Positions 10,941 to 32,701 of a DNA stretch of 64,000 nt are shown here, piece after piece. Each line of letters begins with the position of its first letter. The stretch's first letter is position 1. The stretch comes from Phocaeicola salanitronis DSM 18170 (lineage in GTDB: Bacteria; Bacteroidota; Bacteroidia; Bacteroidales; Bacteroidaceae). The stretch spans positions 2,108,001 through 2,172,000 of the forward strand of contig NC_015164.1 of assembly GCF_000190575.1 (NCBI RefSeq). Reading direction: 5' to 3'. Made by a program: the position numbers and the translations under genes. The notes beneath the pieces were generated by a model. That model was not told where the DNA came from and did no database searches. It was given only the letters and a program-made list of their open reading frames with translations.

Positions 10941-10950
10941 TTCTACTTCA

Positions 10951-15809: not shown

Positions 15810-16645
15810 GCTTTAATCGGTATTATTAATGAAAATGTAGTAAACCGGCCCTCTTCTGAATCAAACTCAATGCGTCCGTGATGTTTCTCCTCAATGATAC
15901 TACGGGTGATAAACATTCCCAGCCCCGTACCTTGTCCTGTAGGCTTGGTCGTAAAGAAAGTCTCGAACAGCCGTTGTTTCACTTCAGGGCTCATCCCTAC
16001 CCCATTATCGGTGATTGAGATAACCAACTCTTCCGCCTGCCGTGCCACCTTGACCGAGACCGTCGGCTTATAGTCGGCATCCCCGTTCTGCGCCTTATCC
16101 CACACAGCATAACAAGCATTGTTCATCACATTCAATACGGCACGGCTCAAATCCTGAGGCACTACAGACATCATCGGAATATCCTTTCCATAATCTTCCA
16201 AGATAGAGATATTAAAATTCTTCAGATTTGCCCGCATCGCATGATACGAAAGCCATACATATTCCTTTACCAGCTTGCATACATCCGTCGGAATAAACTC
16301 GTCTTCTTTCCCACGCGAATACAATAATATATTCTGAATGATGCTGATAGCCCGGTCGCCATGTTCCTTTATCTTTTGCAGGTTCTCTTTCAGGCTTTCC
16401 ATTATATCCCGGATATCCTCTACGTCATCCCCGTCAATATCTGCCGTATTGGCTTCGATATCTTCTTCCAAATCTTTTATCAAGTCTCCAGAAAGCTTGC
16501 TGAAATTGATGACAAAGTTCAACGGATTACGTATCTCGTGTACGATTCCTGCCGTAAGCAAACCCAATGTAGCCATTTTTTCCTGCTGCCTTAACTGGTC
16601 TTGCAAACTTTCTACCTGCCGCTTCAATTGTTCTATCGTTTCCAT
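15806..16645 (-). CDS. soluble sensor histidine kinase
   Basis: The 279-aa protein starts METIEQLKRQVESL, a coiled coil, with no membrane segment. The H-box is intact (GIVHEIRNPLNFV, His36). The ATPase domain has an N-box (VLNVMNNACYAVW), G1 (ITDNGVGMSP), F (FETFFTTK) and G2 (GQGTGLGMF). It closely resembles the C-terminus of the upstream propeller kinase, suggesting duplication. The ATG at 16645 lies 34 nt after that gene's stop; longer starts to 16774 would overlap it by 95 nt and give an unlikely basic leader. It could be the catalytic partner of the degenerate propeller kinase. Confidence 0.85.
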   Translation of the reverse strand: METIEQLKRQVESLQDQLRQQEKMATLGLLTAGIVHEIRNPLNFVINFSKLSGDLIKDLEEDIEANTADIDGDDVEDIRDIMESLKENLQKIKEHGDRAISIIQNILLYSRGKEDEFIPTDVCKLVKEYVWLSYHAMRANLKNFNISILEDYGKDIPMMSVVPQDLSRAVLNVMNNACYAVWDKAQNGDADYKPTVSVKVARQAEELVISITDNGVGMSPEVKQRLFETFFTTKPTGQGTGLGMFITRSIIEEKHHGRIEFDSEEGRFTTFSLIIPIKA

Positions 16646-16679
16646 ATCTTGAGATTTTTGAGTTAATCTTTTTGTTTTC

Positions 16680-19600
16680 TTAATTATTCTCTTCCCCTTT
16701 CTCATCCGCATCATTCTTTTTCCCATTTTCCGGATGGTGGACAGGTACAGAAATAACAAATTCGGTATATTCATTCTTAACCGATTGTATAGTTATGTCC
16801 CCGCCATGATTGAGTATGATTTCCCGGCTAAGATACATACCTACTCCCACCGCTTCTGCCGTAGTTTTCGTGGTAAAGAACGGATCAAATACCTTGTCTA
16901 TAATAGAGGACTCAATGCCAACACCATTATCATAAATACTTACTTTCGCCTGGCTTGAATCGGCATCAATGAAAACCCGCAACCGTATCAAGGGTTCGAA
17001 AGCCTTACCTTGCTGACGTTTTTTCCGAAGCGCATACATGCTATTTGCCAGCATACTCATCACGACCTTGCTGAACTGTTCTGCATCCACTTCCGCTACA
17101 ACCATCGCTTCCTTATCCGGTGATTCTATCCGGATATGACACTCAGCTATATCTTCAGCATAATACGCATGAAGCATCTCTATATTCTTACGGCAAATCG
17201 ATGCCAGATTAATCAGCGTCGGATTCACACTCCGGTCTTTCAGCATTTCCTCCATTGCTTTCAATATACGCGTCGTGTTCAATCCATGCTCTTCAATCTT
17301 CTTCAGGTTCGTATTCAGCATATCAAGTGCGTCAACGGAATCTTCGTAAATGTCCGAAGTCATATTCTCCTGGTCATCGTCCAGGTTATCCTTGATGTCT
17401 TTTACCAGCCCGATGCTCATGTGCGAGAAATTGTTCACATAATTCATCGGGTTCAGAATACGGTCTACAAGCCCTTTGGTCAACGCACCCACCGTAGCCA
17501 TCTTCTCTTGACGGATAAGCTGGTATTGAGCCTTGCTCAAATCATCGAGGGCAATCTCCAGCTTTTTGGATTTTTCTTCAATCTCGTCCTTCTGATTACG
17601 TATTTGCGAGGTCCGTTCTTCCACGATATGCTCCAGACGCATCTTCTCCGCCAAAAGCCGGCGCATACGCCACCTTATCAAAAACAGGATGAGCAATGAA
17701 AGTGCAACGATATACAATACGATGCTATACCAACGTACATAAACAGGATAACGCACGGTTAAAGGCAATGTCAACGATTCCATCGTACGCCCGTACCGGT
17801 CGCGTGCCATAACCTGAAATGTATAACGCCCCGAACGTGGATTGGCAAAACGTGCCGAAGTCTCCGTACTCCAATCCGACCATTCGTCACCGGCATCCAA
17901 CCGGTAACGGTATTCCGTTGCCCCCAGAACAGAGAACAAGTCCGAAGAGAAATACACCTTGATATCACGGATGCCGCTATTAAATGAAAGCTCTTTAAAA
18001 GGAAGCGTAACCCCCAGGCAGTCTCCCTCATCAAATCCGCCCCATACCACCGAATCATTATCAATCACAATGCGCCGGATGTATACATGAGATTTCTTTG
18101 CATAATCCGGTTCTTTCACCGCCATATTCCAATGAATCAGTCCGAAATTTCCTCCCAACCATACATCATCCCCGTCGGTCTCCATTGTTCCTATTGTCAA
18201 ATCATGTATGGGACGCAAAAGGGCATTTATCTCCTCTATCCCTTGTTTTTTGGTGTATATATGCAGGTTTTTCCCGTCATTATTTGTTCCCCAGACACGC
18301 CGGCCCGGCTCGGGATAAACAAACTGGGGATATTGGATATCCGAAGACCACAAAGAGCGGTCCGCCACTTCTACCAACTTTTTCCCTGCCTTATCCCACT
18401 TAAACAACCCTACATGGCTCAACACAAATATGATTCCATTCTGGACGAAAAGCGTATTGTTAAAACTGTCTTTCTCCCCTTTGGCATTTTCGGGAGCCAG
18501 AATAACATACCCGGAATAGTCTCCTTCGCAACGGAACACCTGTCCATAAATATTCCTTACCCACAACGTCTTATCGTCATCTACATAAAAATAGGTAGCC
18601 TTCTCGATAATGTTCAGCTGTTTCCTTTCACCCTGCCGGACCTGATAAACACCATCCACTTCACCCGTATAATACGTTCCATCTCCGCAAACATAGGCAG
18701 AAAGCGTATGGCTGCCCGTTATTTGCCGTGCCTGCCTGCCATATACGGCATACAAGCCGCCAGCCGTAGAAGCATAGACATTCCCTGCCGCATCTTGCTG
18801 GAGCTGCCAACAGGCATGCTGGATTGCCCGAATCGGTTCAAAAACATCACCTTCCTTGTAGAACAAGCCCTGCAAAGTGCCTACGTAAAGCCCGTCGGCG
18901 GTATGGCAAATGGACTGCACTTCACCCGATAAGCCCTCGTTAGAGCGGAAATAAGTATATGCCGTATGTATATTTACTAAAAAAAGACCATTATCGGTAG
19001 CTCCCCACACATAACCTGACGAGTCTACATAAATGCCATTCACATTGTTATTGCACAACCCGTTTTGCTCTGTCAGCGCATACACTTCATTCCCCTCTTT
19101 ATCCAACATCACAAAACCATTTCCAGCCGTAGCCAACAAGACCGAGCCATCCTCCAGCGTCAACCGCTTGTTTACCAATGCCTCTTTATAATACCGGATA
19201 TCATCGGATTTGTCCTGATTAACAATAAAACCGTCCATGGAATCATCCTGAATATCCGCATCACCCAGCGAAGTCGTAACATAAATCTTCCCATCCTTCT
19301 CCCCGATATCCGTCACTTCGCCCAAAAAGCCTTTATTGTTTTTAGAGAATACCATCTGCAATTCCAGTTCTCCATTCCCGTCTGAGGTCAGATATCCGAA
19401 CAGATTGTATCCGCCTACCCAGATTCGTCCCCGGTTGTCCTTAAATAATTTCGTAATCCGGAATACCCCCGGAGCATGAATCGTATGCCACTCCGTCTGG
19501 TCGTAATACAATACCCCTTCGAAATTGGCAACATACACCCGCCCGCTATCATCACTCACAATATCAAAATTACGGTTGTGCGCATGATAAACCGCAGGAG

Positions 19601-19703
19601 AATAATTGACAAAGAAAGGAATCCCGCCCTTTGCCTCTATTTGCCCTATACCGGCAAGCAGCAAAAACACCAGACACAGAAGATATCGTTTCATCGTCTT
19701 CAA
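16680..19703 (-). CDS. propeller-sensor histidine-kinase-like protein lacking the phosphoacceptor His
   Basis: The 1007-aa protein has a signal peptide, a long periplasmic region of two-component-regulator propeller repeats (DDSGRVYVANFEGVLYY, DNRGRIWVGG, DSSGYVWGATDNGLFLV), a Y_Y_Y-type Ig domain (about 560-650), one membrane helix (about 655-680), a coiled coil and a kinase core. Where histidine kinases read HExxNP it reads GLVDRILNP, with Asp747 in place of His. The ATP-binding boxes are intact (ANSMYAL, YDNGVGIES, FDPFFTTK, GVGMYLS). It has no receiver or AraC domain, unlike Bacteroides hybrid sensors. Its start overlaps the WD40 gene by 4 nt. Confidence 0.88.
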   Translation of the reverse strand: MKTMKRYLLCLVFLLLAGIGQIEAKGGIPFFVNYSPAVYHAHNRNFDIVSDDSGRVYVANFEGVLYYDQTEWHTIHAPGVFRITKLFKDNRGRIWVGGYNLFGYLTSDGNGELELQMVFSKNNKGFLGEVTDIGEKDGKIYVTTSLGDADIQDDSMDGFIVNQDKSDDIRYYKEALVNKRLTLEDGSVLLATAGNGFVMLDKEGNEVYALTEQNGLCNNNVNGIYVDSSGYVWGATDNGLFLVNIHTAYTYFRSNEGLSGEVQSICHTADGLYVGTLQGLFYKEGDVFEPIRAIQHACWQLQQDAAGNVYASTAGGLYAVYGRQARQITGSHTLSAYVCGDGTYYTGEVDGVYQVRQGERKQLNIIEKATYFYVDDDKTLWVRNIYGQVFRCEGDYSGYVILAPENAKGEKDSFNNTLFVQNGIIFVLSHVGLFKWDKAGKKLVEVADRSLWSSDIQYPQFVYPEPGRRVWGTNNDGKNLHIYTKKQGIEEINALLRPIHDLTIGTMETDGDDVWLGGNFGLIHWNMAVKEPDYAKKSHVYIRRIVIDNDSVVWGGFDEGDCLGVTLPFKELSFNSGIRDIKVYFSSDLFSVLGATEYRYRLDAGDEWSDWSTETSARFANPRSGRYTFQVMARDRYGRTMESLTLPLTVRYPVYVRWYSIVLYIVALSLLILFLIRWRMRRLLAEKMRLEHIVEERTSQIRNQKDEIEEKSKKLEIALDDLSKAQYQLIRQEKMATVGALTKGLVDRILNPMNYVNNFSHMSIGLVKDIKDNLDDDQENMTSDIYEDSVDALDMLNTNLKKIEEHGLNTTRILKAMEEMLKDRSVNPTLINLASICRKNIEMLHAYYAEDIAECHIRIESPDKEAMVVAEVDAEQFSKVVMSMLANSMYALRKKRQQGKAFEPLIRLRVFIDADSSQAKVSIYDNGVGIESSIIDKVFDPFFTTKTTAEAVGVGMYLSREIILNHGGDITIQSVKNEYTEFVISVPVHHPENGKKNDADEKGEENN

Positions 19704-21250
19704 TCTTTAATTTTGTTTACTAATTTAAGCCGTATGCGGGGAACATTACGCCCTACATAATACGACCATTCATCATCGGTAAAATCCCGCTTCAGTTTGC
19801 TTTGGATAAGAGCAGCCATCTCGTCGGGAGAAATCATGATGCGCGACACTGCCCCACTCTCATCTCCTGTCCATATCGTATTATCTTCCGCCATGCAAAT
19901 GCAATGCACCCATCCGGATAAAGTCTTCAACGATACCGCCTCCTGCTTGCTGGCACTGATGTCCCACAAGCTTACGGTGCAATCATAACTGGAAGAGAAC
20001 AAGTATTGCCCTTTAAATTCAAGTTGAGTTATACGGGAACGATGCCCCACAAGCGATTTTACCACATTCCCCGTCTCATCTATCAGATAAATATTTCCAT
20101 TCTCTACTCCGACCGCTCCCATTTTCAAGTCAGACGACCAGGAAAAAGCCGTAACTTGCTCTTTAATAAAATGTTCCTGAGGAACCAGTTCCCCTTCACG
20201 CCCTATCCTCCATAAGCCGTTTTCCTTACCGAATGCCAACCATTGGTTTTCTTTACATCCCAAAGCGGCAAGAGGTTCTGATAGAGAAATGGTTTTCTTT
20301 ATCCGGTCCTCCTTCTTATCATATATATAAAGGTGCATAGCCGAAGCCAAAAGCAGCTGTCCATTGCCGAAAGGAACAATCCTCATCCACCCGTTATCTT
20401 CCGGCAAGAGAAAGGTCTCTGCCGATTTCCCGTTTATGACAAGCATCCTCCCATCGTATGACAAGGCATACACCACATTATTTTCATCCCAATAAACATC
20501 TCTGAAACTATACTCCGGATTGCTGAACAACACTTCATTCCCAACAAATCCCTCATCATAACGCCATCGGTTCACCTCTCCATAGTTACTCACCGAGACA
20601 TAACTGTTTTTACCGTCCGAAGACTGAACTATCTTCGTGACACCTCCCTTATGGAGATTCCTGGACACAAAACTTTCACTGGTCTGTCCCAAGGCATTAA
20701 AAATAACAGGCTGATACACATTCCCTTTATATTCGGATGTATATTTCCACGAAGCATACGCAAGCAAAGCCGCCACATCTTTATTGCCAGCCCTATATTG
20801 CACATTGGAAAGCAAAGCCAAAGCACGTCCCAATGCCACATTGCTCAACGTATCAGCCACATTCCTTGCATATTCGGCACGAAGTTGCTGTTGTACGGCA
20901 AGCTCACGCTGGTTCTCCGCCATATTTCTAGCTTCAACCGCATTGCGGGAAAAAGCTTCCGCCTTTTTCTGCTCTTCTTCGGCACGTATGCGCATCTGCT
21001 CGGCCACTCCCATCTGGAATACCGCTTCTTCGCGTTGCTTCTCGGAAATATCTTTTTGCTGATAAGCTATGTCTTCCATCTGTTTGCTGATACGTTCCAC
21101 CACATACGACTTACCTTCTTTTTCCTTATACTCATCCAGCTGAGCCCGTAAAGCATCCACCCGCCGGGATAAGCCGATATTGAAATATCCCAATATCACC
21201 ACCACAACGAGAAGAAAAACACTCAAGATATGCCAACCATGCTTTTTCAC
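19700..21250 (-). CDS. membrane-anchored coiled-coil WD40 protein
   Basis: The 516-aa protein has one N-terminal hydrophobic helix (about residues 7-26), then a long coiled coil (about 30-135, KQREEAVFQMGVAEQMRIRAEEEQ-like). A LALLSNVQYRAGNKDVAALLAY helical linker follows, then a WD40-like propeller (about 190-480; VKSLVGHRSRITQLEF…SSSYDCTVSLWDIS). The C-terminal FTDDEWSYYVG segment is also found in WD40 parts of large bacterial STAND/caspase-like signalling proteins. No effector or NTPase domain is fused. As first gene of the kinase-receptor-NRPS operon it is probably a scaffold or sensor. The side of the membrane is not certain. Confidence 0.8.
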   Translation of the reverse strand: MKKHGWHILSVFLLVVVVILGYFNIGLSRRVDALRAQLDEYKEKEGKSYVVERISKQMEDIAYQQKDISEKQREEAVFQMGVAEQMRIRAEEEQKKAEAFSRNAVEARNMAENQRELAVQQQLRAEYARNVADTLSNVALGRALALLSNVQYRAGNKDVAALLAYASWKYTSEYKGNVYQPVIFNALGQTSESFVSRNLHKGGVTKIVQSSDGKNSYVSVSNYGEVNRWRYDEGFVGNEVLFSNPEYSFRDVYWDENNVVYALSYDGRMLVINGKSAETFLLPEDNGWMRIVPFGNGQLLLASAMHLYIYDKKEDRIKKTISLSEPLAALGCKENQWLAFGKENGLWRIGREGELVPQEHFIKEQVTAFSWSSDLKMGAVGVENGNIYLIDETGNVVKSLVGHRSRITQLEFKGQYLFSSSYDCTVSLWDISASKQEAVSLKTLSGWVHCICMAEDNTIWTGDESGAVSRIMISPDEMAALIQSKLKRDFTDDEWSYYVGRNVPRIRLKLVNKIKD

Positions 21251-21440: not shown

Positions 21441-22007
21441 TTATTTGCTTGCCAACGTTTTCAATATCTCGAAAGCCAGCAAATAACAATGCCCTCCGGT
21501 GCGCGCCGAAACCAAGTCTCCGTCGACCACAACATCTGCATCAACATACTCTACACCATAGTTCTTGGCATCGCCCAACAGATTATTATGCACGGTCATC
21601 TTTCTTCCTTTCACCAGTTCGGCTACAGGAGAGAACAACCACAAGCCGTGGCAAATCACTCCCTTAACGATGTCCTTGCGCGCAAATACTTTTTGCAAGA
21701 ACACACATGCAGGAGGAAGCTTCGTCACATCTTCGGTATACCGAAGACGGTCTGACACCATACCTGCAGGCACGATAATAGCTGCATAATCATTAAGAGC
21801 CTCATCATCAAGCGCCTCAAAGCTCTCATTACAATAAAACGGTGCCCTGAATTCATGCCCGCTAAACGTAATGCCCTCGTTGCCCCAAAGACGGGACAGA
21901 AAATGAACCTCATACCCGGCTTCCTTGAAACGGAACTGATAATAGAAGATTTCATTTTCATAGAAATCGCTTTCTATAAGTATTCCTATCTTATTTTTCA
22001 TCATCAA
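21441..22007 (-). CDS. DJ-1/PfpI family protein
   Basis: The 188-aa cytoplasmic protein has the DJ-1/PfpI nucleophile elbow (VICHGLW, Cys119-His120) and the partner Glu12 near the N-terminus (GILIESDFYENE). Family members act as glyoxalases/deglycases, chaperones or amidases; which applies here is unclear. It overlaps the RsbW-type gene by up to 17 nt (three successive ATGs are possible starts), so it belongs to the partner-switch operon. The cyanobacterial IcfG cluster also contains a ThiJ/PfpI gene as I recall it. Confidence 0.8.
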   Translation of the reverse strand: MMMKNKIGILIESDFYENEIFYYQFRFKEAGYEVHFLSRLWGNEGITFSGHEFRAPFYCNESFEALDDEALNDYAAIIVPAGMVSDRLRYTEDVTKLPPACVFLQKVFARKDIVKGVICHGLWLFSPVAELVKGRKMTVHNNLLGDAKNYGVEYVDADVVVDGDLVSARTGGHCYLLAFEILKTLASK

Positions 22008-22404
22008 TCTTTTTCTTGATAGTCAATATATTTTCATTACCTACATGTTCATACGACACGTTATCCATCATCTGAACCGTAAGGAAGATTCCAAGTCCCC
22101 CTATCTGGCGTTCTTCCAGCGGAAGAGAAACATCCGGCATATCCCTTTCCAACGGATTGAACGGCACACCTCCATCAATAAACTTCAGCGTGATGCATCC
22201 GTCGGCCTTCTCTATCTGAATCTTCAGATAACCTTCCACGCCTTCAGGGTAAGCATAACTTACCACATTGACCACCAGTTCCTCGCAAACCAGATGAATG
22301 GCATACAATTCCTTGGTGCATGATGCCACCTCCCCGGTCTGGAGGATGGCATCAATGATTTCTTCCGTTCTGCCTGCAATAGGCTTGAAAACCAATTCTT
22401 TCAT
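21991..22404 (-). CDS. RsbW-type serine kinase/anti-sigma-like ATPase
   Basis: The 137-aa GHKL ATPase has an N-box (CEELVVNVVSYAY, Asn46), G1 (FIDGGVPFNP) and G2 (GGLGIFL). RsbW-like proteins phosphorylate STAS partners on Ser and bind a target protein when the STAS partner is phosphorylated. Twelve nucleotides separate it from the STAS gene at 22417, the normal RsbV-RsbW order. No sigma-factor gene lies nearby, so the controlled target may be something other than a sigma factor. Confidence 0.87.
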   Translation of the reverse strand: MKELVFKPIAGRTEEIIDAILQTGEVASCTKELYAIHLVCEELVVNVVSYAYPEGVEGYLKIQIEKADGCITLKFIDGGVPFNPLERDMPDVSLPLEERQIGGLGIFLTVQMMDNVSYEHVGNENILTIKKKIDDEK

Positions 22405-22416
22405 AGCATTACCTGC

Positions 22417-22728
22417 TTACTTGCTTACGAAAGAAATGTAGTTCTGCAGACCTGTCATTTCAAACACGCTACGGATATCAGCAGCGCAATTCACAAACTC
22501 AATTACAGGGTTTCCGCCCAATTTCTGCTTGGCAAAAATAATGGTACGTATACCGCTACTGGCAATATAAGCCAGCTTGGTGGCATCAAAGACAACTTTT
22601 TCTATGCCCTTGCCTTTGTATCCGTTCAATTCTTCCATAAGGGCAGGAGCATTGCCTGTAGTAAGCTGGTCACCTAAAACGATAGTCAAGGTATTACCTT
22701 CCTGATTGATTACAAATTGATTATCCAT
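22417..22728 (-). CDS. STAS-domain anti-sigma-factor antagonist (RsbV-like)
   Basis: The 103-aa single STAS domain carries the phosphorylation-site signature DATKLAYIASSGIR with Ser57 and Ser58. It would be phosphorylated by the adjacent RsbW-type ATPase and dephosphorylated by the PP2C protein encoded at 27093. It lies between glgX and the ATPase gene. The signature is intact, so it should be a competent switch component. Confidence 0.87.
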   Translation of the reverse strand: MDNQFVINQEGNTLTIVLGDQLTTGNAPALMEELNGYKGKGIEKVVFDATKLAYIASSGIRTIIFAKQKLGGNPVIEFVNCAADIRSVFEMTGLQNYISFVSK

Positions 22729-22771
22729 ATCTTTTTAATTTATAATTTTACAATTTACTATTTACAGTTTT

Positions 22772-24913
22772 CTATTTCCCAACCAAAATCATGATAGAAC
22801 GCGGCCCTACCAGGATTTCCTGCTGGTTTTCAATCATACACTCTTCTCCCGGTTCGCAAATATCGTCCGGAGCAGCCATTTCCGTATTGGCAAATACATG
22901 CCATGCCATGCCTTCGGGCAATTGCGGGAGTTCGAACCCATGCATGTCCCAATGCATATTCATGGCTACATAAATAAAATCATCAGGCACCCCGTCTGTC
23001 TCCGCATACCGTCCGTTCAGCATAAAGGCTGCGGTCAGATTGTTATATCCGGTATCAGGACGCCATGCTTTTACACCGTGCCATGAGAAATCGGGATATC
23101 CCAGATTACGGTAATCACAATGCCCGAAATGATATTCGAAACGCAATGCTTTATGAGCCTGACGGAAGCGGATAATCTTACGGAAGTAATTATAAATGTC
23201 CTCATTCTTCTGCAGATTCGTCCAATCGAGCCATCCGATTTCATTATCCTGACAATAAGCATTGTTATTTCCATATTGGGTATTCCCCATTTCGTCACCC
23301 GATAATATCATCGGAATACCCTGGCTTACCATCAACAAGGATATTGCATTCTTTATCTGTTTATGACGCAGGTAGTTGATTCCCGCATCTTCACATTCGC
23401 CTTCCCAGCCGCAATTCCAGCTATTGTTATTGTCTTCTCCATCCCGGTTGTCCTCGCCATTCGCTTCATTGTGCTTGCCATTATACGATACAAGATCCAT
23501 CAATGTAAATCCATCATGTGCTGTAATAAAGTTCACACTTGCCTTAATGCCTCGGTTTTGAGAGGCATACAAGTCGGCTGAACCTGCGATACGTTCTTTC
23601 ACATCGCCCAATACATGTTCGTCACCTTTCAGGAACCTGCGGATGCTATCCCGGTATTTCCCGTTCCATTCCGCCCAGCGCCCCCATGAAGGAAATGCAC
23701 CTACCTGATACAAGCCTCCGGCATCCCATGCCTCAGCTATCAATTTGGTTTTACCCAAAATAGGGTCATGAGCCAATGACTCCAGCAAAGGCGGATTAGG
23801 CATCGGACATCCATTCTGGTCACGTCCCAAGATAGCCGCCAAATCGAAACGGAATCCATCCACGTGATAATCGGTTACCCAATAACGCAAGCTTTCTACA
23901 ATCATATCCCGCACATTGGGGTTATTGCAATTCAACGTATTGCCGCACCCGCTGAAGTTAAAATAATAACCTTCCGGAGTCAACATGTAATAAGTCTTAT
24001 TGTCAATACCCCGATACGAGATATAAGGCCCATTCTCATTCCCTTCTGCCGTATGGTTGAAAACCACATCCAGGATAACTTCAATACCATTCGCATGAAG
24101 TTGCTTGATAAGATTTTTCAATTCATCCACCTGCATACCGAAACGCCCGGTAGATGCGTATGCGGCTTTAGGGGCAAAGAAGCCTACATTGCTATATCCC
24201 CATACGTTGTAAAGCATATGCCCATCAACCGGAGAAGGCTTGCTGTTCTCAAATTCGTCAAACTCATGAATCGGCATCAATTCCACGCAATTCACGCCTA
24301 ACTCCTTCAAATAAGGAATCTTTTCGGCTATGCCGGCAAAGGTTCCGGGATGCTTTACATTCGCATCCGCACCGCATGTAAAATTACGGACGTGCATTTC
24401 ATAGATGACCAGTTCATTTACCGGAGTTTCCAACGGAAGGTCGTCTTCCCAATCAAAGTCATCACAAACCACACGGGCACGGTATTGATATACATTGTCC
24501 CAATCGGGCTGGGCACCCCATACGTCACGTCCTGCAATCAACTTGGCATACGGGTCCATCAAGATTTTCGTCTTATCAAAACGATGACCTTCCTTCGGAT
24601 TCCACGGCCCGTCCATCCGATAACCATATTCGATATTCTCGAAATCCAAATCGAAGACCATCATCGAGAATACATTTCCCATCTTAAATTCCTTCTGGAA
24701 AGGTATTTCGACAAACGGTTCCGGTTCATGATTATGGAAAAGAACCAACGTACAATCCGTAGCGTAACGGGAATAGACCGAAAAGTTTACAGCATTTCCC
24801 ATTACGGTAGCCCCGAAAGGATAAGGACGCCCTGTACGCAATTTCAATCCTTTATACTCATGTGTCGGGAATAAATCTACTCGCTGCATACTTACCCTAT
24901 TTGACTTTGACAT
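22772..24913 (-). CDS. glgX: glycogen-debranching enzyme, GlgX/isoamylase type (GH13)
   Basis: The 713-aa protein has an N-terminal CBM48 region (about 15-130) and a GH13 barrel. Catalytic blocks are DVVFNHTAEG, DGFRFDLAA (nucleophile Asp), LIAEAWDAGG (acid/base Glu) and FITAHDGFTL. It hydrolyses alpha-1,6 branches in glycogen or limit dextrins in the cytoplasm; there is no signal peptide. It overlaps the upstream STAS gene by 22 nt and is embedded among partner-switch genes, so expression is tied to that regulatory set. This co-location is the strongest hint that the switch governs glycogen or carbon storage. Confidence 0.92.
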   Translation of the reverse strand: MSKSNRVSMQRVDLFPTHEYKGLKLRTGRPYPFGATVMGNAVNFSVYSRYATDCTLVLFHNHEPEPFVEIPFQKEFKMGNVFSMMVFDLDFENIEYGYRMDGPWNPKEGHRFDKTKILMDPYAKLIAGRDVWGAQPDWDNVYQYRARVVCDDFDWEDDLPLETPVNELVIYEMHVRNFTCGADANVKHPGTFAGIAEKIPYLKELGVNCVELMPIHEFDEFENSKPSPVDGHMLYNVWGYSNVGFFAPKAAYASTGRFGMQVDELKNLIKQLHANGIEVILDVVFNHTAEGNENGPYISYRGIDNKTYYMLTPEGYYFNFSGCGNTLNCNNPNVRDMIVESLRYWVTDYHVDGFRFDLAAILGRDQNGCPMPNPPLLESLAHDPILGKTKLIAEAWDAGGLYQVGAFPSWGRWAEWNGKYRDSIRRFLKGDEHVLGDVKERIAGSADLYASQNRGIKASVNFITAHDGFTLMDLVSYNGKHNEANGEDNRDGEDNNNSWNCGWEGECEDAGINYLRHKQIKNAISLLMVSQGIPMILSGDEMGNTQYGNNNAYCQDNEIGWLDWTNLQKNEDIYNYFRKIIRFRQAHKALRFEYHFGHCDYRNLGYPDFSWHGVKAWRPDTGYNNLTAAFMLNGRYAETDGVPDDFIYVAMNMHWDMHGFELPQLPEGMAWHVFANTEMAAPDDICEPGEECMIENQQEILVGPRSIMILVGK

Positions 24914-25209
24914 TCTTCTACCGTATCGAAGTATTTAAAGAAATGTTCGAAGCCTGTAATAGCCATTACTTCCCTCACCTCTTTAGATACACCTACCAAG
25001 TACACATTCAAGCCATTGGATGCAGCTACTTTATAAGCATAAAGCATGACACGCAATCCGGCACTCGATACATACTTACATTCAGACAAGTCCAAAATCA
25101 CACTTTTGTTTTCATCCAAAATAGACAATATGACTTGCTGTTCTTCTTTGCTGGATGAAGCGTCCAACACAGAACCTACTTTATGAACTTCCGCACTCAT
25201 CTTTTTCAA
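24892..25209 (-). CDS. second STAS-domain anti-sigma-factor antagonist
   Basis: The 105-aa STAS domain has DLSECKYVSSAGLRVML, with Ser48/Ser49 at the phosphosite. Its start overlaps the AGE-family stop by 4 nt; an internal ATG at 25200 (MSAEVHK) is an alternative. Two STAS proteins for one RsbW-type ATPase implies two inputs or outputs. One phosphatase acting on two STAS substrates is also what I recall for the cyanobacterial IcfG system. Confidence 0.85.
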   Translation of the reverse strand: MKKMSAEVHKVGSVLDASSSKEEQQVILSILDENKSVILDLSECKYVSSAGLRVMLYAYKVAASNGLNVYLVGVSKEVREVMAITGFEHFFKYFDTVEECQSQIG

Positions 25210-27062
25210 TCTTTAGGAACAATAACGACTTTGACTTTCGGACGATATTCTACGGCAGGCAGCTGTATGGTCAACTTATCTGCATCGAAATTCTTCCATT
25301 CCCGTCCGTCAATCCATACTTCCTGCAATTTCACGCTTCCTACAGGCAAGATATCGGGTTGTACACGCAATACATTATCCTTGAAACCATTTACCATAGG
25401 TTTGAAATATAAGGTCAACGGTTTCTTGGTATTCAGCAAATTGGTATAAGTAGCTGCCAGATAAGCTAATTCTACTGAATGGTAAGCACTCATCGAGTGG
25501 CTTCCCTTCTTACGTTCCGTACCCAGCAGGTAAGGCAAGCCATTAGCCAATACATTGAAATAAACGGCTCCGTCTTCATGGTCAAGGAAATAAGTATTAT
25601 AGAAGGCAGCTGATTCACGTGCATATTTCAAATATTCCTCTTTGCCATAGATACCATACAGAATCTCGTATGCCAAAATCGCCTGCTCCTGTTGCCACCA
25701 TGCCTTACGGTCGTGCCATGCGAAACGATAATATTCTTGATTGCCATGCAAACGGCGTTCCATCACATCATACCAACCGCCACGCTGTACGTCCAAACCT
25801 ACTTGAGGCATGACCTCTGCAATGTGCTGGGCAAATTCTTCATACGATTTCTTCGGGCAGATGCTATTGATACGCATCAAGTTCCATGCAATCTTCAGAT
25901 TATGCCCCACTACCGCACGGTCTTGTTGCCATCCCCATGTCAGGTCATGACTCCAATCGTCCATAAAACGCTCATTTACAAACGGGCTATTCTCATAATC
26001 CGGGAAATGTGTAGTGATAGTATCGGCTGTATATTCCAAGAAATCCTTGTATTTCTTTTCCTCAGTAGCCAGATACAAGTTAATCAAATAAGCAGGAGCA
26101 TGATCACCTACAGAGTTCCAGTTCTTACGCATCCGGTTCGGGCCAAGGCTTGAACTGTCCGGACTCAACAATACCGGGTCTATATGCGAATAATATCCTT
26201 CTCCTTTCTTATCCTTGAAGAAACGTTCGAAAAGGTCGATAGTCAATTCAGCATCGCGCAAAATAGAAGGGTCACCGTTCACACGGTAAGTCTGAATCGG
26301 ACCAGCCAATGCATAAATCTGCTCATACATCGGGATGGCATCGTAATCATCGCCAAACTCAGAAGTAAAGATTTTCTTTTCTTTGTCCCCATCAATGTCA
26401 ATGCCATGATACCAATAAACCACATTCTCATCTACATCGTAGAAACGCATGTGTTTTTTCAGGTATTCCACACCTTTTTCAGCTGTTTCCAAGAAAATGT
26501 CTTCACCTGTCAGCATAAAAGCGGAAGCCATACCGTAAATCATACGTGAAATCGTATCGGTTTCCTGGCGGAAAGAGTTCACTTCCCGTTTGCCGCCCAG
26601 GCTTACCGCCGTACGGTATTTTTCATAATCGATTTCACCATCACCGAACTGCGCACGGACAAAAAAGTTACAGATACTTTTTGCCTGATTAGCCCACCAG
26701 TTGGATTCTTCAAAACGGAACTTACCTAATTCTCTTTCCGGAAAATCTATCTGTTTTGCTTCAAATGTATACTGCCCGTCATGTTGGGGATAGAAAATAC
26801 CAAAGACAAAAGCCATACGGCCATTTTGAGACAAAAGCTGATAAAGATTACCAGTAGCATCCTGGTAAGGTTCGTCCAAATTACGCATCAAACGCGCAAA
26901 TGTAGTATCTGTTAACAATACAGGGAAAGAACGTTTATCTGTTGTTGTCAACGTAAAACATTTCTCACTTTCATTAAAATCGCTTACATATCCGGCAATC
27001 AGATCTGTAAATTCAAACTGCATCTTATCGGCAGGTTTGAATACTTTAAAATTGTCTTTCAT
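25206..27062 (-). CDS. AGE-superfamily (N-acylglucosamine 2-epimerase-like) alpha/alpha-barrel protein
   Basis: The 618-aa protein has an N-terminal beta-rich region (about 1-110) and an (alpha/alpha)6 barrel. Family blocks include VVGHNLKIAWNLMR, VQRGGWYDVMERR and WHDRKAWWQQEQAILAYEIL. AGE proteins epimerise or isomerise sugars such as N-acylglucosamine, mannose or cellobiose. The N-terminal extension and length (typical AGE proteins are about 400 aa) mark a distinct subfamily. It lacks a signal peptide and sits between the PP2C and STAS genes. The substrate is unknown; a role in sugar metabolism near glycogen is plausible. Confidence 0.75.
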   Translation of the reverse strand: MKDNFKVFKPADKMQFEFTDLIAGYVSDFNESEKCFTLTTTDKRSFPVLLTDTTFARLMRNLDEPYQDATGNLYQLLSQNGRMAFVFGIFYPQHDGQYTFEAKQIDFPERELGKFRFEESNWWANQAKSICNFFVRAQFGDGEIDYEKYRTAVSLGGKREVNSFRQETDTISRMIYGMASAFMLTGEDIFLETAEKGVEYLKKHMRFYDVDENVVYWYHGIDIDGDKEKKIFTSEFGDDYDAIPMYEQIYALAGPIQTYRVNGDPSILRDAELTIDLFERFFKDKKGEGYYSHIDPVLLSPDSSSLGPNRMRKNWNSVGDHAPAYLINLYLATEEKKYKDFLEYTADTITTHFPDYENSPFVNERFMDDWSHDLTWGWQQDRAVVGHNLKIAWNLMRINSICPKKSYEEFAQHIAEVMPQVGLDVQRGGWYDVMERRLHGNQEYYRFAWHDRKAWWQQEQAILAYEILYGIYGKEEYLKYARESAAFYNTYFLDHEDGAVYFNVLANGLPYLLGTERKKGSHSMSAYHSVELAYLAATYTNLLNTKKPLTLYFKPMVNGFKDNVLRVQPDILPVGSVKLQEVWIDGREWKNFDADKLTIQLPAVEYRPKVKVVIVPKD

Positions 27063-27092
27063 AAAAAAAGGTCTTTTATTGTACTACATGTG

Positions 27093-28259
27093 TTATTTCA
27101 ATCGTTTCAATATCAACATCGTAATGTCATCGCTTTGAGGTTCGTTCCCGACAAAATCCTTCAAGTCTTCCAAAATAGCTTCCGCTATTTCTTCGCTCCC
27201 TGCACCCGGTACACTCTTCAAGGTTTTCTCTAATCCGCTTTCCGAAAACATTTCCCGGTTTTCATTAAAGGCTTCTGTCACACCATCGGTGTAGAGAATC
27301 AACGTGTCTCCCGGCTCCAAAGTCAAGCTCGAATTTGTATAGACAAAATCATCAAATACGCCTACGATAAAATTCTTGGAAAGCGGTAATGGTTCTACGG
27401 TATTATTCTTACGCAATAAATACGGAGGATTGTGCCCTGCATTCGTATAGTCCACCTCGCCGGTCTTGATATTGTAAATACCATAAAAGACCGTTACAAA
27501 CATCGAGTCAAGACTTTCGTTACACAACAATTTATTAGCATAATTGATGCATTCATGAGAAGGGACTCCCCTGATGCCTGTAGCACGAATCAATGTCCGG
27601 CTTACTGCCATAAACAAGGATGCCGGGACACCTTTCCCCGATACATCGGCTATTACAAAGCCGATTCGTTCTTCGTCTATCTGGAAAAAGTCGTAGAAAT
27701 CTCCACCCACATCTTTCGCCGGAGTCATTGAGGCATAAATGTCAACAACATCAGCCAACTTAGGGAATGGCGGAAATTTACGAGGCAATATAGCCTGCTG
27801 AATCTCACCAGCCACCGCTAAATCATTTTTAATAGACTCCAACTGATCATGTTCATTCTGCGATTCTCTGACAAAATTTATTTGCTCAATCGCCTTTTCT
27901 ATCGTGCGTGACAAATCATCCAAATCAATCGGTTTAGTAGCGAAATCAAATGCACCGTTGTTCATCGCCGAACGGATGTTGTCCATATCGCCGTATGCAG
28001 ACACCATAATGCATTTCAATGCCGGATTCCTCATCTCGTTGATGCGGGTCAACAAAGTAAGCCCATCCATTTCGGGCATATTGATATCACTCAAAATAAT
28101 ATCAAAGTCTTTCTTTTCCAACACCAATTGCAAGGCTTCCAAACCATTATGCGCAAAGGTGAACTCGTATTCACCCTTGCGGATTTTCCGACGAAAATAC
28201 TGGGTCAGCAGTATTTCCAAGTCCTGTTCATCGTCTACGCTTAAAATTTTAATTGCCAT
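27093..28259 (-). CDS. response regulator with PP2C/SpoIIE phosphatase output (RsbU/IcfG-like)
   Basis: The 388-aa protein has a receiver domain (1-120) with acidic pocket DD9-10, phosphoacceptor Asp58 (ILSDINMP) and Lys109 (TKP). A short coiled linker leads to a SpoIIE phosphatase (about 165-385) with metal-binding blocks KDVGGDFYDF, ADVSGKGVPA, NAGHNPP, LYTDGVTEA and SDDITM. It would dephosphorylate the STAS proteins when its receiver is phosphorylated. It is the only receiver domain in the window, so the histidine kinase at 15806 is the obvious candidate partner. Confidence 0.9.
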   Translation of the reverse strand: MAIKILSVDDEQDLEILLTQYFRRKIRKGEYEFTFAHNGLEALQLVLEKKDFDIILSDINMPEMDGLTLLTRINEMRNPALKCIMVSAYGDMDNIRSAMNNGAFDFATKPIDLDDLSRTIEKAIEQINFVRESQNEHDQLESIKNDLAVAGEIQQAILPRKFPPFPKLADVVDIYASMTPAKDVGGDFYDFFQIDEERIGFVIADVSGKGVPASLFMAVSRTLIRATGIRGVPSHECINYANKLLCNESLDSMFVTVFYGIYNIKTGEVDYTNAGHNPPYLLRKNNTVEPLPLSKNFIVGVFDDFVYTNSSLTLEPGDTLILYTDGVTEAFNENREMFSESGLEKTLKSVPGAGSEEIAEAILEDLKDFVGNEPQSDDITMLILKRLK

Positions 28260-28303: not shown

Positions 28304-29524
28304 TCACTTCGTAGATATGCAATTTTCTAACGGTTTTTTCGGCAAAGTATGAGCAAATGCCACCACCAAAAAACCGATTATCACAGAAGTAACGGCACAC
28401 ACAATAAAACGCATTCTACCAGAACCATCCATCGAATTATCTACAAACAAGTCCGTATAAAGCGGAGACACAAATTGTCCCACTTGAGCCACCGACATGA
28501 TAATAGCTACTCCTAAAGTCCGCTGGCGCGGAGTGACAATGCGCGGCAAGAAAAGAGAAATGGGAGGCAAAGCGAAGCCGCCGCCAAGCCCCACGACCAA
28601 ACATCCTGCCATCAAGACGCTATACGAATGAGAGCAAGCGATAATGACATATCCTGCCGCCATTATCACCGTGGCAAAAGGCATGGTCCAGTCTTTCAGA
28701 TTCCGCATAATCCAAGCCAACAACACACCGGCAATAATCGCCGGGATACGCATCAGAGAAAGCGCATAGCCACACTCTTTCGCATTGCCGATACCCTCCA
28801 CGTCCATAAACAACGCCAAGTCGGTATTTATCACAAAGTAACAAGCAAATATCATCATGGCAAAAAACGCTAAAACAAATATCTTCTTATTCATTCCCGT
28901 TTTCTTGCCTACACCACCTGCAGCATTTTTGGGGGAAGCCAACGGTGGAATAGAAGGCATAAACAAAGCGGTCAATACGATTGATATAACCACAAAGGCG
29001 TAACACAAGAACGAATAACGCCACGAAATACTTGCCAACACACCCGACAAACTCATAAAAAGCAAACCGCCCAACTGGTTAAAAGAGCCTTGTAAGCCCA
29101 AAAGCTTGCTACGTTTATTGGTATCCGGAGCAAAATCAAATATCAGTGAAGTGGATAAAGGAGTCATAATGCCTAAACCTATTCCGAAAAACAAACGCAT
29201 TAACAACAAAAGCCGGAAATCGTTCACAAAACCTCCAGCCACACCAAATACAAGAAAAAGTATCATCCCGGTAAGCAAAAGCTTTTTCTTGTCTATCTTA
29301 GCAGTAAGACGCGCGGAAAACAATCCTATCGGCATCATTATCAACGTAGGCAAGGTTAAAACCAACTTGGCTTGTGTTTCCGAAATATGCGGGAATGCAT
29401 CCCGTATAGCAGCCAAGGCAGGAGATACTGCCGTAGGTGCCATAATAGTAAGCACAGATACCGATAAAATAGACGGTATCAACATTTTCGAATATTTCTT
29501 TGTCTCTTCCATTTTTATATTCAA
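28304..29524 (-). CDS. major facilitator superfamily transporter
   Basis: The 406-aa membrane protein has 12 predicted helices. MFS features include ARLTAKIDKKKLLLTG between helices 2 and 3 and FGIGLGIMTPLSTSLI in helix 4. The cargo is unknown; export of a small molecule or sugar uptake are both possible. An internal start MEETKKYSKM at 29512 is also plausible. It heads the partner-switch module, 44 nt upstream of the PP2C gene. Confidence 0.88.
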   Translation of the reverse strand: MNIKMEETKKYSKMLIPSILSVSVLTIMAPTAVSPALAAIRDAFPHISETQAKLVLTLPTLIMMPIGLFSARLTAKIDKKKLLLTGMILFLVFGVAGGFVNDFRLLLLMRLFFGIGLGIMTPLSTSLIFDFAPDTNKRSKLLGLQGSFNQLGGLLFMSLSGVLASISWRYSFLCYAFVVISIVLTALFMPSIPPLASPKNAAGGVGKKTGMNKKIFVLAFFAMMIFACYFVINTDLALFMDVEGIGNAKECGYALSLMRIPAIIAGVLLAWIMRNLKDWTMPFATVIMAAGYVIIACSHSYSVLMAGCLVVGLGGGFALPPISLFLPRIVTPRQRTLGVAIIMSVAQVGQFVSPLYTDLFVDNSMDGSGRMRFIVCAVTSVIIGFLVVAFAHTLPKKPLENCISTK

Positions 29525-29929: not shown

Positions 29930-31588
29930 TTATACCCTCCCCAAACTGAAAGGCGGATACACTTCACTATCTACCAACACATCAATAATGCAAGGCTTGT
30001 TCAACGCGATGGCATCCTGCAACGCCGGCAAGAATTCTTCCAATTTTTCTACCCTATATCCTTTCGCTCCACATGCTTCGGCATACTTCACAAAATCCGG
30101 ATTCTCAAACTGCATATATGCCTCGTCATTATACATATTCAGCAAGAACTTCTTGATGATATTAAATTCACTGTTATTGAATATAATCCAAATAACAGGA
30201 ATGTTATATTGCACTGCTGTCATCAATTCGAATCCTGCCATCTGATAGCATCCATCACCCACGCCTGCAATCACCACTTTATCCGGATTAGCGCATTTCA
30301 CTCCCAAGCAGCCGTTCGTATGGCTTGCCATCGGTCCGAAACTTCCCGGATTCTGATAGCGCTGATTCTTATTCAACTGCAAATAACAGCTCAACCACAA
30401 CATGTGCGAACCGGCATCACCCATTACAATGGCATTGTCTGGCAGATTCTGAGACAAGACACGGACGATATCTCCCGGAAAAATCCGTTGGGCATCCGTA
30501 TGCACCGGTTCCTCATAATAATGTCTGTTGGGCAATGTACCGATTTGCAAGGAGGGCAAATTACGTTTCTCCAACAAAGGCAATAACTCCTGAAGTGCCA
30601 ATTTGATATCGCTTACCACCGCTACATCAGCTTTATACACTTTATTGATTTCAGCCGGATCAATATTCACATGAATCAACTGTTTATTCGCATATAAATC
30701 CGGTTGGAATGAGAATGTAGCATTTTGAGCGAACGAATTTCCCATCGCGAGCACGACTTCCGCCTCCTGAAAATACGTATTAGCAGCCTTGTCACCCGAT
30801 GTTCCATACATGCCTAAACACAAAGGATGATTCTCCGGCAATAATCCTTTGGCATCCATTGTCTGGACAAACGGTATTTGATACCTTTCTATTAATTGGA
30901 GCAATTCGCCGGATGCCTCACTACGCACGCAACCATAACCAATCATCGCCAGCACTTTCTTATTCTTACTGATTGCATCAGCCAATGCATCCGCCGCTTT
31001 TTGCAGAGCTTCTTCCGTTGCCTTAACCGCTTTTACACGGATGTTAATCGGACGGAAATTGGTTACTTCTGCCGTAGTCACATCTTTCGGTATATGGATA
31101 TGCACCGGTCCCGGACGCCCGTCGAATGCTGTATTTATAGCGTCTTCCAAGATATCACACGTATCTTCTGCCCGCTCCAATACATACGATTTTTTAGTCG
31201 TAGCCGAAAACATCACCTGCGAATCAGGCGTACGGCTCAATCCTGTAGATTCGTTCAACGCACCTTTTCCCCGTTGTCCCATTGAAGTATATCCTGTTAT
31301 AGCCAATATGGGCAACGAATCGGATAATGCTACCGCCATGCCTGAGAACAAATTAAACGCACCCGGACCTCCCGTCGCAAAGCACACACCCAAATTATTC
31401 GGGTTAAACATAGTGTAGCCACATGCCATGAACGACGCCGCCTGCTCATTGCGGATAATAACGGTCTTTATTTTTTTCGAATCGCGCAGAGCCAACAACA
31501 TAGAGGCGTTTACCTGTCCGCTCCCTCCAAATACATAGCTCACGCCGATATCTTCCAGTGCTTTTACGATGGTTTGGTTTACATCCAT
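29930..31588 (-). CDS. thiamine diphosphate-dependent enzyme, acetolactate-synthase-like
   Basis: The 552-aa protein has the three ThDP-enzyme domains. The N-terminal Pyr domain has the activating Glu48 (IRNEQAASFMACGYT), a middle domain follows, and the C-terminal PP domain has GVGDGCYQ…NN for Mg-ThDP. Relatives include acetolactate synthase, oxalyl-CoA decarboxylase and other 2-oxoacid carboligases or decarboxylases. There is no ilvN or ilvC nearby and no CoA-specific signature that I can see, so branched-chain synthesis is unlikely. With the tautomerase, DJ-1-like and cupin genes it suggests processing of an oxo-acid or aldehyde. Confidence 0.85.
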   Translation of the reverse strand: MDVNQTIVKALEDIGVSYVFGGSGQVNASMLLALRDSKKIKTVIIRNEQAASFMACGYTMFNPNNLGVCFATGGPGAFNLFSGMAVALSDSLPILAITGYTSMGQRGKGALNESTGLSRTPDSQVMFSATTKKSYVLERAEDTCDILEDAINTAFDGRPGPVHIHIPKDVTTAEVTNFRPINIRVKAVKATEEALQKAADALADAISKNKKVLAMIGYGCVRSEASGELLQLIERYQIPFVQTMDAKGLLPENHPLCLGMYGTSGDKAANTYFQEAEVVLAMGNSFAQNATFSFQPDLYANKQLIHVNIDPAEINKVYKADVAVVSDIKLALQELLPLLEKRNLPSLQIGTLPNRHYYEEPVHTDAQRIFPGDIVRVLSQNLPDNAIVMGDAGSHMLWLSCYLQLNKNQRYQNPGSFGPMASHTNGCLGVKCANPDKVVIAGVGDGCYQMAGFELMTAVQYNIPVIWIIFNNSEFNIIKKFLLNMYNDEAYMQFENPDFVKYAEACGAKGYRVEKLEEFLPALQDAIALNKPCIIDVLVDSEVYPPFSLGRV

Positions 31589-31616: not shown

Positions 31617-31856
31617 TTACTTCTGTTTATCAGCCCACTCATCCTCGTTAAACTTTGCTTTCGCGCTTTTAGGAGGATTCTCAGAAAATAATTTTCCGCC
31701 TGTAGCTGCCTCGTTCAAACCGTATCCGTTAAAAAAAAGATAAATACGGTCTTTAGGCACTCCGCTTACTTCGGAAAAGGTAGAGATGAACTTATCGGCT
31801 ACAATCTTCTTTTGCTCGTCGGTCATCTCAATGCTATGAATTATTATTGCCGGCAT
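31617..31856 (-). CDS. 4-oxalocrotonate tautomerase-like protein
   Basis: The 79-aa protein starts MPAIIIHSIEM; removal of Met exposes Pro1, the catalytic base of the tautomerase superfamily. The rest fits the short beta-alpha-beta subunit (PKDRIYLFFNGY), with a longer C-terminal tail. Such enzymes interconvert enol and keto acids. It starts 28 nt upstream of the ThDP-enzyme gene. It is preceded by a terminator hairpin after the DJ-1-like gene, so this pair may be partly separate from the genes above. Confidence 0.82.
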   Translation of the reverse strand: MPAIIIHSIEMTDEQKKIVADKFISTFSEVSGVPKDRIYLFFNGYGLNEAATGGKLFSENPPKSAKAKFNEDEWADKQK

Positions 31857-31927: not shown

Positions 31928-32701
31928 TTATTTAAGAGAATTCAACACTTTCACAATCATATCACCGTATGCGATAGATGATTCTACCGAAGTACCGGTA
32001 ATAAACGGATGATCGTAATAAACTTGCGGGTCTTCACGACTTGCATTGATACGTGCTATACAAGCGCCGTTAGGACCTACAGCGTCACGAACCAAGTCTT
32101 CGATAGGCCACAAGAATCCCGGAGTAATCACATTCGTACCGCAATTGTCAGGAGTTGCACCATACAATTCGTATGACATAGCCATACCCGGACCATAGAA
32201 ATCCCATGCACGTGGATGAGCACAAATCTTCTTGCCATACACAATCGACTTATAATCATTTTCCGGGTCGCGGAGGAATACCAATGTAGAAACGGCATAG
32301 CACAATGCAGCCACAATCTTACCGCTCTTATAAGCATCCATAATCAGCTTATGCAATTCCCAGCAATTACACATATCCAACATAGCACCCGGACCGCCAG
32401 TCAAAGCAATCGCATCATAATCAGCCATGTTTACTTCTGAGAATTTCAACGGATGTGCCCATTCTTCGCCATCTACCAATTCCTTGCAGCGGTCGCAAAC
32501 TTCTTTCGGATTAGTCTTGATATTCTGTACACCGTCTACAAAATCAGGGTCTACACTGATTTGGAAAGGAAGCGGTTTCTTTCCTTGCGGAGTAGCCAAA
32601 GTCACTTCAAAACCAGCTTTCTTACATGCATCCCACGGAGCCTGCAATTCCTCACCCCATGAACCATAATTCGTTGCAATAATTAAAACTTTCTTTGCCA
32701 T
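31928..32701 (-). CDS. DJ-1/PfpI superfamily protein, Hsp31-like
   Basis: The 257-aa protein carries the elbow AALCYAV (Cys134), an N-terminal acidic partner in YGSWGEELQAP and the GGPGAML loop. Size and the cap-like insertions (about 50-90 and 165-200) resemble Hsp31/glyoxalase III proteins, which detoxify methylglyoxal or repair glycation. It follows the repeat-protein genes and precedes the tautomerase. This is the second DJ-1-fold gene in the locus; the two are not close paralogs. Confidence 0.82.
   Translation of the reverse strand: MAKKVLIIATNYGSWGEELQAPWDACKKAGFEVTLATPQGKKPLPFQISVDPDFVDGVQNIKTNPKEVCDRCKELVDGEEWAHPLKFSEVNMADYDAIALTGGPGAMLDMCNCWELHKLIMDAYKSGKIVAALCYAVSTLVFLRDPENDYKSIVYGKKICAHPRAWDFYGPGMAMSYELYGATPDNCGTNVITPGFLWPIEDLVRDAVGPNGACIARINASREDPQVYYDHPFITGTSVESSIAYGDMIVKVLNSLK

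Follow-up and report, generated by a model that had tools for sequence, protein, structure and literature searches.

A gene module of phosphatase, STAS proteins and serine kinase surrounding GlgX and a long AGE-superfamily protein in Phocaeicola salanitronis: indications for operon enzymes as switch outputs

The stretch of DNA analyzed here (the window) covers 64 kb of the 4.3 Mb genome of Phocaeicola salanitronis DSM 18170 (contig NC_015164.1, positions 2,108,001 to 2,172,000). It contains a run of seven genes, all on the minus strand and read from position 28259 down to 21441, in which a type of switch that usually controls gene reading is apparently tied directly to two sugar-handling enzymes. 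ORFs (open reading frames), Pfam and NCBIfam bear out the leftward run of seven genes proposed in an earlier note on this DNA, with gaps of at most 43 bp. The run is headed by a SpoIIE-type phosphatase with a receiver domain (REC-PP2C, the IcfG counterpart; 27093..28259; PF00072 and PF07228), followed after 30 bp by a long AGE-superfamily enzyme of 618 amino acids (25206..27062). PF07221 (GlcNAc_2-epim) matches the latter at residues 168-501, ahead of which lies an N-terminal stretch of approximately 165 amino acids; the protein is 100% identical to the AGE protein of Phocaeicola intestinalis (locus L009). Its gene overlaps by 4 bp with that of a first STAS protein in the position of Slr1856 (STAS1; 24892..25209; PF01740), in which the serine of the phospho-site is kept. 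Next come GlgX, an isoamylase-type debranching enzyme (22772..24913; CBM48 and alpha-amylase matches in Pfam, TIGR02100), and, separated by 43 bp, a second STAS protein in the position of Slr1859 (STAS2; 22417..22728; PF01740; phospho-site Ser57). After another 12 bp, an RsbW/SpoIIAB-like serine kinase (21991..22404; PF13581, HATPase_c_2) and a DJ-1/PfpI protein (21441..22007; PF01965) complete the run. Both STAS1 and GlgX and the kinase and PfpI genes overlap or nearly abut, according to the start codon chosen, and the true start of GlgX may be an internal ATG past the stop codon of STAS1.

Family assignments were checked by profile scores and by the conservation of functional residues. GlgX reaches 685 bits with TIGR02100 (cut-off 640.9), and D357 and E394 are present in 72/72 aligned relatives and D467 in 71/72, residues which we take to be catalytic. 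In the AGE protein, H321, H387, H528, W455, W456 and E459 are invariant in 80/80 relatives; the histidines align to 5zig and are presumably catalytic. The protein misses the NCBIfam equivalog for N-acylglucosamine 2-epimerase by far (22.3 bits, cut-off 600). The metal-site residues D187, D190, D325, D377 and D378 of the PP2C are found in 55/55 relatives above 190 bits, and the phospho-acceptor region of the REC domain is intact in all ten Bacteroidales rows. Kinase residues E42, N46, D77, G102, G103 and G105 are conserved in 59/59 aligned sequences. This protein scores below the NCBIfam equivalogs for RsbW (31.6 vs 145) and SpoIIAB (24.5 vs 135), and all relatives of solved structure detected for it were anti-sigma F factors (E between about 5e-4 and 1e-3). 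With TIGR00377 (anti-sigma factor antagonist; cut-off 53.45), STAS1 scores above the cut-off (65.3) and STAS2 below it (41.3). The phospho-site serine and the glycine following it are present in 171/171 aligned separate STAS domains from loci L009-L143, and C119-H120 of PfpI in 67/67 aligned sequences. Judged by these residues, the parts of the module look active.

Loci for comparison were collected around the best 80 of 579 AGE relatives. These belong to Bacteroidota, Bacillota, Omnitrophota, Cyanobacteriota, Spirochaetota, Chloroflexota, Elusimicrobiota, Kiritimatiellota, Planctomycetota, Deinococcota, Pseudomonadota and candidate phyla, and the AGE proteins from loci of other phyla are 61-69% identical. 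AGE, GlgX and STAS occur together in 73 of the 80 loci, and AGE, STAS, GlgX, kinase, PP2C and PfpI are all present in 40, a low estimate since contig ends cut loci and kinase-phosphatase fusions carried a single label. A chance neighborhood is rejected based on these counts. The order AGE-STAS1-GlgX-STAS2 is common to cyanobacteria, Omnitrophota and other phyla, as well as to plasmids of Streptomyces, Deinococcus and Runella. The module, for which the earlier note had considered that it might be unique to one strain, is therefore no strain-specific oddity, being found across many phyla and on plasmids. Nevertheless, the AGE gene is rare. When AGE matches were counted within group samples (centre genome included), it was present in 2 of 201 genomes of the family, one of them the window's own, and in 13 of 395 Bacteroidota (eight at 58% identity or more, five at merely 43%), 19 of 244 Cyanobacteria (the phylum of L060), 2 of 199 Planctomycetota (that of L081) and 2 of 145 Omnitrophota (that of L024). 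In Pseudomonadota (the phylum of L082), 2 of 398 genomes match a fusion protein used as query. Further, 17 plasmid records carry the gene, eight of them from Streptomyces; nine of the 17 were looked at. An AGE tree of 25 listed fusion proteins longer than 690 amino acids and nine loci mixes phyla, placing, e.g., Treponema inside rumen Bacillota (the AGE and GlgX trees are quick searches with midpoint root). Patchy presence and phylum-mixed trees point to horizontal transfer of this rare module, which is either old or mobile.

The phosphatase carries different sensors, and the inputs of the switch are exchangeable. Among 11 PP2Cs tested against Pfam, the window protein and that of Chloroploca have REC, a Nostoc PP2C has GAF, those of two Omnitrophota have cNMP-binding domains, and those of three Bacillota and of a Riflebacterium have dCache; one shows HAMP only, and one had no sensor match. 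In the Omnitrophota loci L041, L043 and L063, kinase and phosphatase form a single chain.

In relatives, switch parts and enzymes are also joined within one protein. One AGE-STAS fusion protein, itself without the phospho-serine, was used as query and gave 3115 matches, of which the best 120 were analyzed; all of them (120/120) have an AGE and a STAS domain, and the fused STAS domain scores STAS2-like in 120/120. Catalytic-type AGE residues are present in 110/110 of those longer than 690 amino acids. When seven fusions were run against Pfam (E 0.001), six matched both families, with the STAS domain of P0250 below the curated cut-off, and P0268 gave no match. R674 and K682 beside the phospho-site (P0243 numbering) are invariant in 42 aligned fusions, so that the STAS domain persists although its switch site is lost. 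A tree was built from 40 STAS1 and 40 STAS2 domains, both with at least 85 bits, 30 of the 120 fused domains and eight domains from loci. It separates a group of fused domains from a group of STAS1, which a single row labeled STAS2 joins, and the remaining STAS2 fall on the side of the fused domains. This fusion is already visible publicly, as some databases name such proteins epimerase and anti-anti-sigma factor. A second, in-frame fusion joins GlgX to the kinase in two Bacteroidales genomes (L106, L107). It is confirmed by Pfam, its kinase boxes look intact as read from the sequence, and a PP2C gene follows it; in both genomes AGE-STAS1-PfpI sits at another locus (L051, L069).

Loci with an AGE-STAS fusion differ from the others in gene content. 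Eleven such loci, found in Bacteroidota, in cyanobacteria and on a Gemmobacter plasmid, were compared (L147 and L152 among them), eight of which have at least 4 kb on each side. Within the available stretch, kinase, PP2C and separate STAS were seen in 0/11; in L152, a nearby gene annotated as "ATP-binding protein" differs in size and is not matched by the kinase profile. Of 57 unfused loci with 6 kb or more on each side, in contrast, 49 carry a kinase, 46 PP2C and 56 a separate STAS. Here, L127 (41% identical), in whose 703-aa frame no STAS was detected, was scored as unfused. The phospho-serine follows the same division. Across 192 STAS domains, it is present in 150/150 of those in kinase-bearing loci and in 31/42 where no kinase was seen. 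The 11 domains without it are nine fused and two unfused ones from Streptomyces (L149, L150), and neither kinase nor PP2C is present in any of their loci.

The trees of the two enzymes also differ. In the GlgX tree, for which 40 of 73 regulated GlgX were sampled, all 11 proteins from fused loci split off on a long, fully supported branch (100), together with GlgX of L151, a plasmid locus in which no STAS and no kinase was detected. On the opposite side are the 40 regulated and the two kinase-fused proteins, 17 whose loci were given neither label, and another five of unassigned context. In the AGE tree, on the other hand, fused rows lie among unfused ones, and cyanobacterial fusions stand beside unfused cyanobacterial AGE. 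GlgX hence seems to have been replaced along with the loss of the switch, which would make sense if the regulated protein is adapted to it; the five proteins of unassigned context weaken this reading.

Switches of this kind are known mainly from sigma factor control. In the host genome, Sigma70_r3 matches one protein only, which is RpoD-like (309-aa frame), and a single kinase is clearly RsbW-like. The free STAS proteins are the two encoded in this operon; a third STAS match lies inside a 578-aa frame. Using phmmer with the host RpoD, no RpoD-like relative was detected among the ORFs of the window and 108 neighbor loci (ECF, i.e., extracytoplasmic function, factors were not searched), in agreement with the earlier statement that no sigma factor is encoded nearby. 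Within the limits of this search, a switch of the SigB/SigF type with its own sigma factor is rejected.

Based on the fusions and the joint loss of kinase, phosphatase and phospho-serine, the single Sigma70_r3 match, the one clear RsbW-like kinase and the two free STAS proteins of the genome, and the contrast between the GlgX and AGE trees, we propose, with a probability of roughly 55%, that the outputs of the switch are the enzymes of its own operon, AGE via STAS2 and GlgX via the kinase and STAS1, rather than a sigma factor. A precedent exists in the STAS protein HsbA, which, according to the available part of PMC5085249, binds an enzyme, the cyclase HsbD. The RsbW-like kinase would phosphorylate STAS1 and STAS2, and REC-PP2C, probably driven by histidine kinases encoded downstream, would remove the phosphate from at least one of them. 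The AGE enzyme would have STAS2 as a removable partner, and GlgX would work with the kinase and STAS1, so that phosphorylation sets the bound partners and thereby whether both enzymes work, or work together. Gene content and order, conserved catalytic and phospho-sites, the fusions in relatives and the joint losses are observed. That free STAS2 binds AGE and the kinase binds GlgX is inferred, as are the sign of the control, the signal received and the sugar reactions of the module. A more specific version, tentative and rather unlikely, is a phospho-switched enzyme assembly: STAS2 sits on AGE and the kinase on GlgX, STAS-kinase binding joins or parts the enzymes without transcription, and where control is no longer needed, STAS2 is hard-wired into AGE, and kinase, phosphatase and phospho-serine are discarded. 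The output other than a sigma factor that the earlier note had suggested thus gains support from fusions and joint loss as a probable reading. If true, a type of signaling best known from sigma factors would also govern how metabolic enzymes assemble. The fusions and the matched losses turn this into two testable links, STAS2 with AGE and kinase with GlgX.

However, several observations weigh against operon enzymes as outputs. The fusions occur only in relatives, and the joining of operon neighbors is an easy mutation. The GlgX-kinase fusion is rare, forming one cluster (P0121, nine member sequences) and 1/120 of those listed from 236; in the order of G594, nine out of 149 genomes have a GlgX match, and G594 alone matches the fusion over its entire length. 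The two kinds of fusion were never seen within one genome. Kinase absence was scored per locus, not genome-wide. Where no kinase was seen at the locus, 29/31 unfused STAS keep the serine, 22 of these 29 in loci with less than 6 kb on one side of AGE and seven not. It is also kept in 2/11 fused loci and in 32 of the 120 fusion proteins, with threonine in nine. Since the STAS tree unites the AGE-STAS domains in a single group, independent losses are few, and relatedness lowers the count of independent events, which Fisher values computed for the locus comparison do not take into account. Finally, the five GlgX of unassigned context on the regulated side mean that this side is not surely confined to the module.

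In the main rival explanation, the switch is sigma-directed: the kinase is an anti-sigma factor, for RpoD or an ECF sigma factor here, both possible candidate targets, and for SigC in cyanobacteria, and AGE and GlgX are just co-transcribed members of the regulon. The Synechocystis kinase Slr1861 is indeed reported as an anti-SigC factor acting with another STAS protein, Ssr1600, in the available portions of PMC12329169, based on RNA polymerase composition and modeling, with pull-downs for the Slr1861-Ssr1600 pair. The relatives of solved structure detected for the window kinase, all anti-sigma F factors, also speak for this explanation. Nevertheless, such a switch has a single Sigma70_r3 protein to act on in this genome, no RpoD-like gene in 108 neighbor loci, and it leaves the fusions of STAS to AGE and of kinase to GlgX unexplained, which makes it unlikely in our view. 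The reported SigC result and the fusions could both be accommodated by a dual output, in which kinase and STAS proteins act on the enzymes everywhere and, through an extra STAS such as Ssr1600, on a sigma factor in cyanobacteria. This would also cover the carbon phenotypes reported for icfG and slr1859 mutants, but it needs two outputs from one kinase and is judged less probable still. Alternatively, STAS might be a structural or folding domain of AGE, so that fusion and serine loss would say nothing about regulated enzyme control. Fused STAS domains, which keep other residues and often lose the phospho-site, fit this explanation, but a purely structural role does not require the serine to be present in 150/150 STAS domains of kinase-bearing loci, and we regard it as improbable.

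Returning to the enzymes as outputs, the best explanation of the locus is a regulated form of a horizontally spread alpha-glucan or sugar module, portable across at least 12 phyla and plasmids. GlgX implies a branched alpha-glucan. For the AGE protein, whose sequence relatives include cellobiose 2-epimerase, an action on glucose or on the reducing end of malto-oligosaccharides seems plausible; this long protein is an uncharacterized enzyme, the role of which should be broad given its identity across phyla. Four of the eight Streptomyces plasmids found were looked at for neighboring genes. In each of them, a maltosyltransferase or "maltotransferase domain" gene adjoins the module; two also have GlgB there, the remaining two have TreS, and one has a named maltokinase. 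GlgX and these GlgE-pathway genes fit an alpha-glucan role and with it part of the control of glycogen or sugar flux that the earlier note had proposed, but "glycogen flux" itself is an extrapolation.

The seven genes are part of a larger unit than described before, as the same-strand run extends on both sides. Immediately upstream lies an MFS transporter (28304..29524, minus strand as all following genes; PF07690), present in 14/15 Bacteroidota loci. It is preceded by a thiamine pyrophosphate (TPP)-dependent, acetolactate-synthase-like enzyme (29930..31588; Pfam match, NCBIfam below cut-off) with relatives near the module in 40/80 loci, by an ORF of 79 amino acids (31617..31856; relatives in 28/80 loci), presumably tautomerase-like, by a second DJ-1 protein (ThiJ_like; 31928..32701; PF17124; 41/80 loci) and by a protein which we take to be cupin-like (35611..35952; relatives in 26/80 loci). 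PfpI is fused to the second DJ-1 in Selenomonadaceae, which ties the upstream genes to the module. Downstream, a WD40 protein (19700..21250; PF00400) with a coiled-coil, as read from the sequence, is a Bacteroidales addition found in 10/80 loci, all Bacteroidota. It is followed by a propeller/Y_Y_Y sensor kinase (16680..19703; Pfam) and a small soluble histidine kinase with an intact HEIRNP box (15806..16774; PF00512 and PF02518). In the propeller kinase, D replaces the phospho-accepting H, as it does in 9/9 readable Bacteroidales relatives. The soluble histidine kinase is a possible candidate kinase for REC-PP2C, and both proteins possibly form a split sensor, a pair that would act on the REC domain. 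A Bacteroides-type promoter pattern matched the window four times (2.05 expected) and not once inside the gene run.

Some further observations were made in the surroundings of the module. Three alike proteins with repeated N-x-G motifs (32761-34074, 34090-35577 and 35987-37282 of the window) lie beside the module in Bacteroidales and occur in the Lachnospiraceae locus L040 too; one is a likely lipoprotein as read from the sequence, and they are possibly beta-helices. The first of them (32761-34074), the only one run against Pfam, gave no match. Downstream of the histidine kinases, after a TonB receptor and on the same strand, an AMP-binding/carrier-domain protein with a thioesterase-like tail, again read from the sequence, is encoded (10951-13434). 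In L143 (~10421-12590), a cyanobacterial AGE gene is split by an insertion with frames that we take to be resolvase-like and TnpB-like, presumably of IS607 type; this locus was left out of the locus comparison due to its broken AGE. On the Runella rosea plasmid (L145, 2594-7322), seven ester cyclase/NTF2-like genes lie directly upstream of the module, and a SnoaL-like-looking family recurs in 19 loci, mostly cyanobacterial. A MinD/ParA-like gene follows PP2C on plasmids of Streptomyces (L146, L153) and Deinococcus (L148), and a MinD-like family is common to nine loci, seven cyanobacterial and two of Chloroploca. L103 (8631-11201) encodes a distant AGE (43% identical) with about 265 extra N-terminal residues, close to a PP2C-kinase fusion and two STAS genes, and is possibly a sister module.

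Comparisons were made with four known systems. In the open-licence literature, no report was found linking partner switching to GlgX, to glycogen and epimerase or to metabolic enzymes, or a STAS domain to a 2-epimerase, nor one on partner switching in Bacteroides. With cellobiose 2-epimerase and N-acylglucosamine 2-epimerase, the AGE protein shares barrel homology and the histidines aligned to 5zig, but at 618 amino acids with its extra N-terminal stretch it differs from them. The Pseudomonas system HsbR-HsbA-HsbD/FlgM, as far as the available parts of PMC5085249 and PMC6482189 describe it, is likewise a partner switch with a response regulator and with a STAS protein binding an enzyme, HsbD. 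Its output, however, is motility and biofilm via cyclic di-GMP and sigma factors, whereas carbohydrate enzymes are the putative output here. SpoIIAA/SpoIIAB and RsbV/RsbW agree with the window in kinase family and catalytic boxes, STAS phospho-serine and SpoIIE-type phosphatase. In contrast to them, the window locus has no RpoD-like gene and the genome no second Sigma70_r3, and enzymes lie between the switch genes and are fused to switch parts in relatives.

The closest counterpart is the icfG cluster of Synechocystis (within slr1852-slr1862), which, in the available portions of PMC8670252 and PMC12329169, comprises AGE (Slr1855), STAS (Slr1856), GlgX (Slr1857), STAS (Slr1859), PP2C (Slr1860/IcfG) and an RsbW-like kinase (Slr1861). 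The likeness to IcfG claimed before holds: these six families are shared with the window, the order AGE-STAS-GlgX-STAS is found in cyanobacterial relatives, matching slr1855-slr1861, and a DJ-1 protein is common to both as well. The window has PP2C metal residues, kinase ATP boxes and two STAS proteins with phospho-serine, as expected of an IcfG-type cluster. In the same portions of PMC12329169, the cluster is tied to carbon and glucose use, with carbon phenotypes of icfG and slr1859 mutants, and the kinase is reported to phosphorylate both STAS proteins, but IcfG to dephosphorylate Slr1856 and not Slr1859, contrary to the earlier claim that the phosphatase acts on both. A connection between enzymes and switch proteins of the cluster was not found in these portions. 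Slr1857 is also listed among enzymes stained for activity in PMC4911114, from which we draw no conclusion. The window differs from the icfG cluster in that its PP2C carries REC (GAF in the PP2C of a Nostoc) and heads the operon, that WD40 and histidine kinases follow, and that its host has only one Sigma70_r3 sigma factor. Further, the TPP enzyme, the second DJ-1 and the cupin-like and tautomerase-like genes were detected in 0/21 cyanobacterial loci at 40 bits. By gene content and order, the window run can be read as the icfG cluster of Synechocystis equipped with another sensor.

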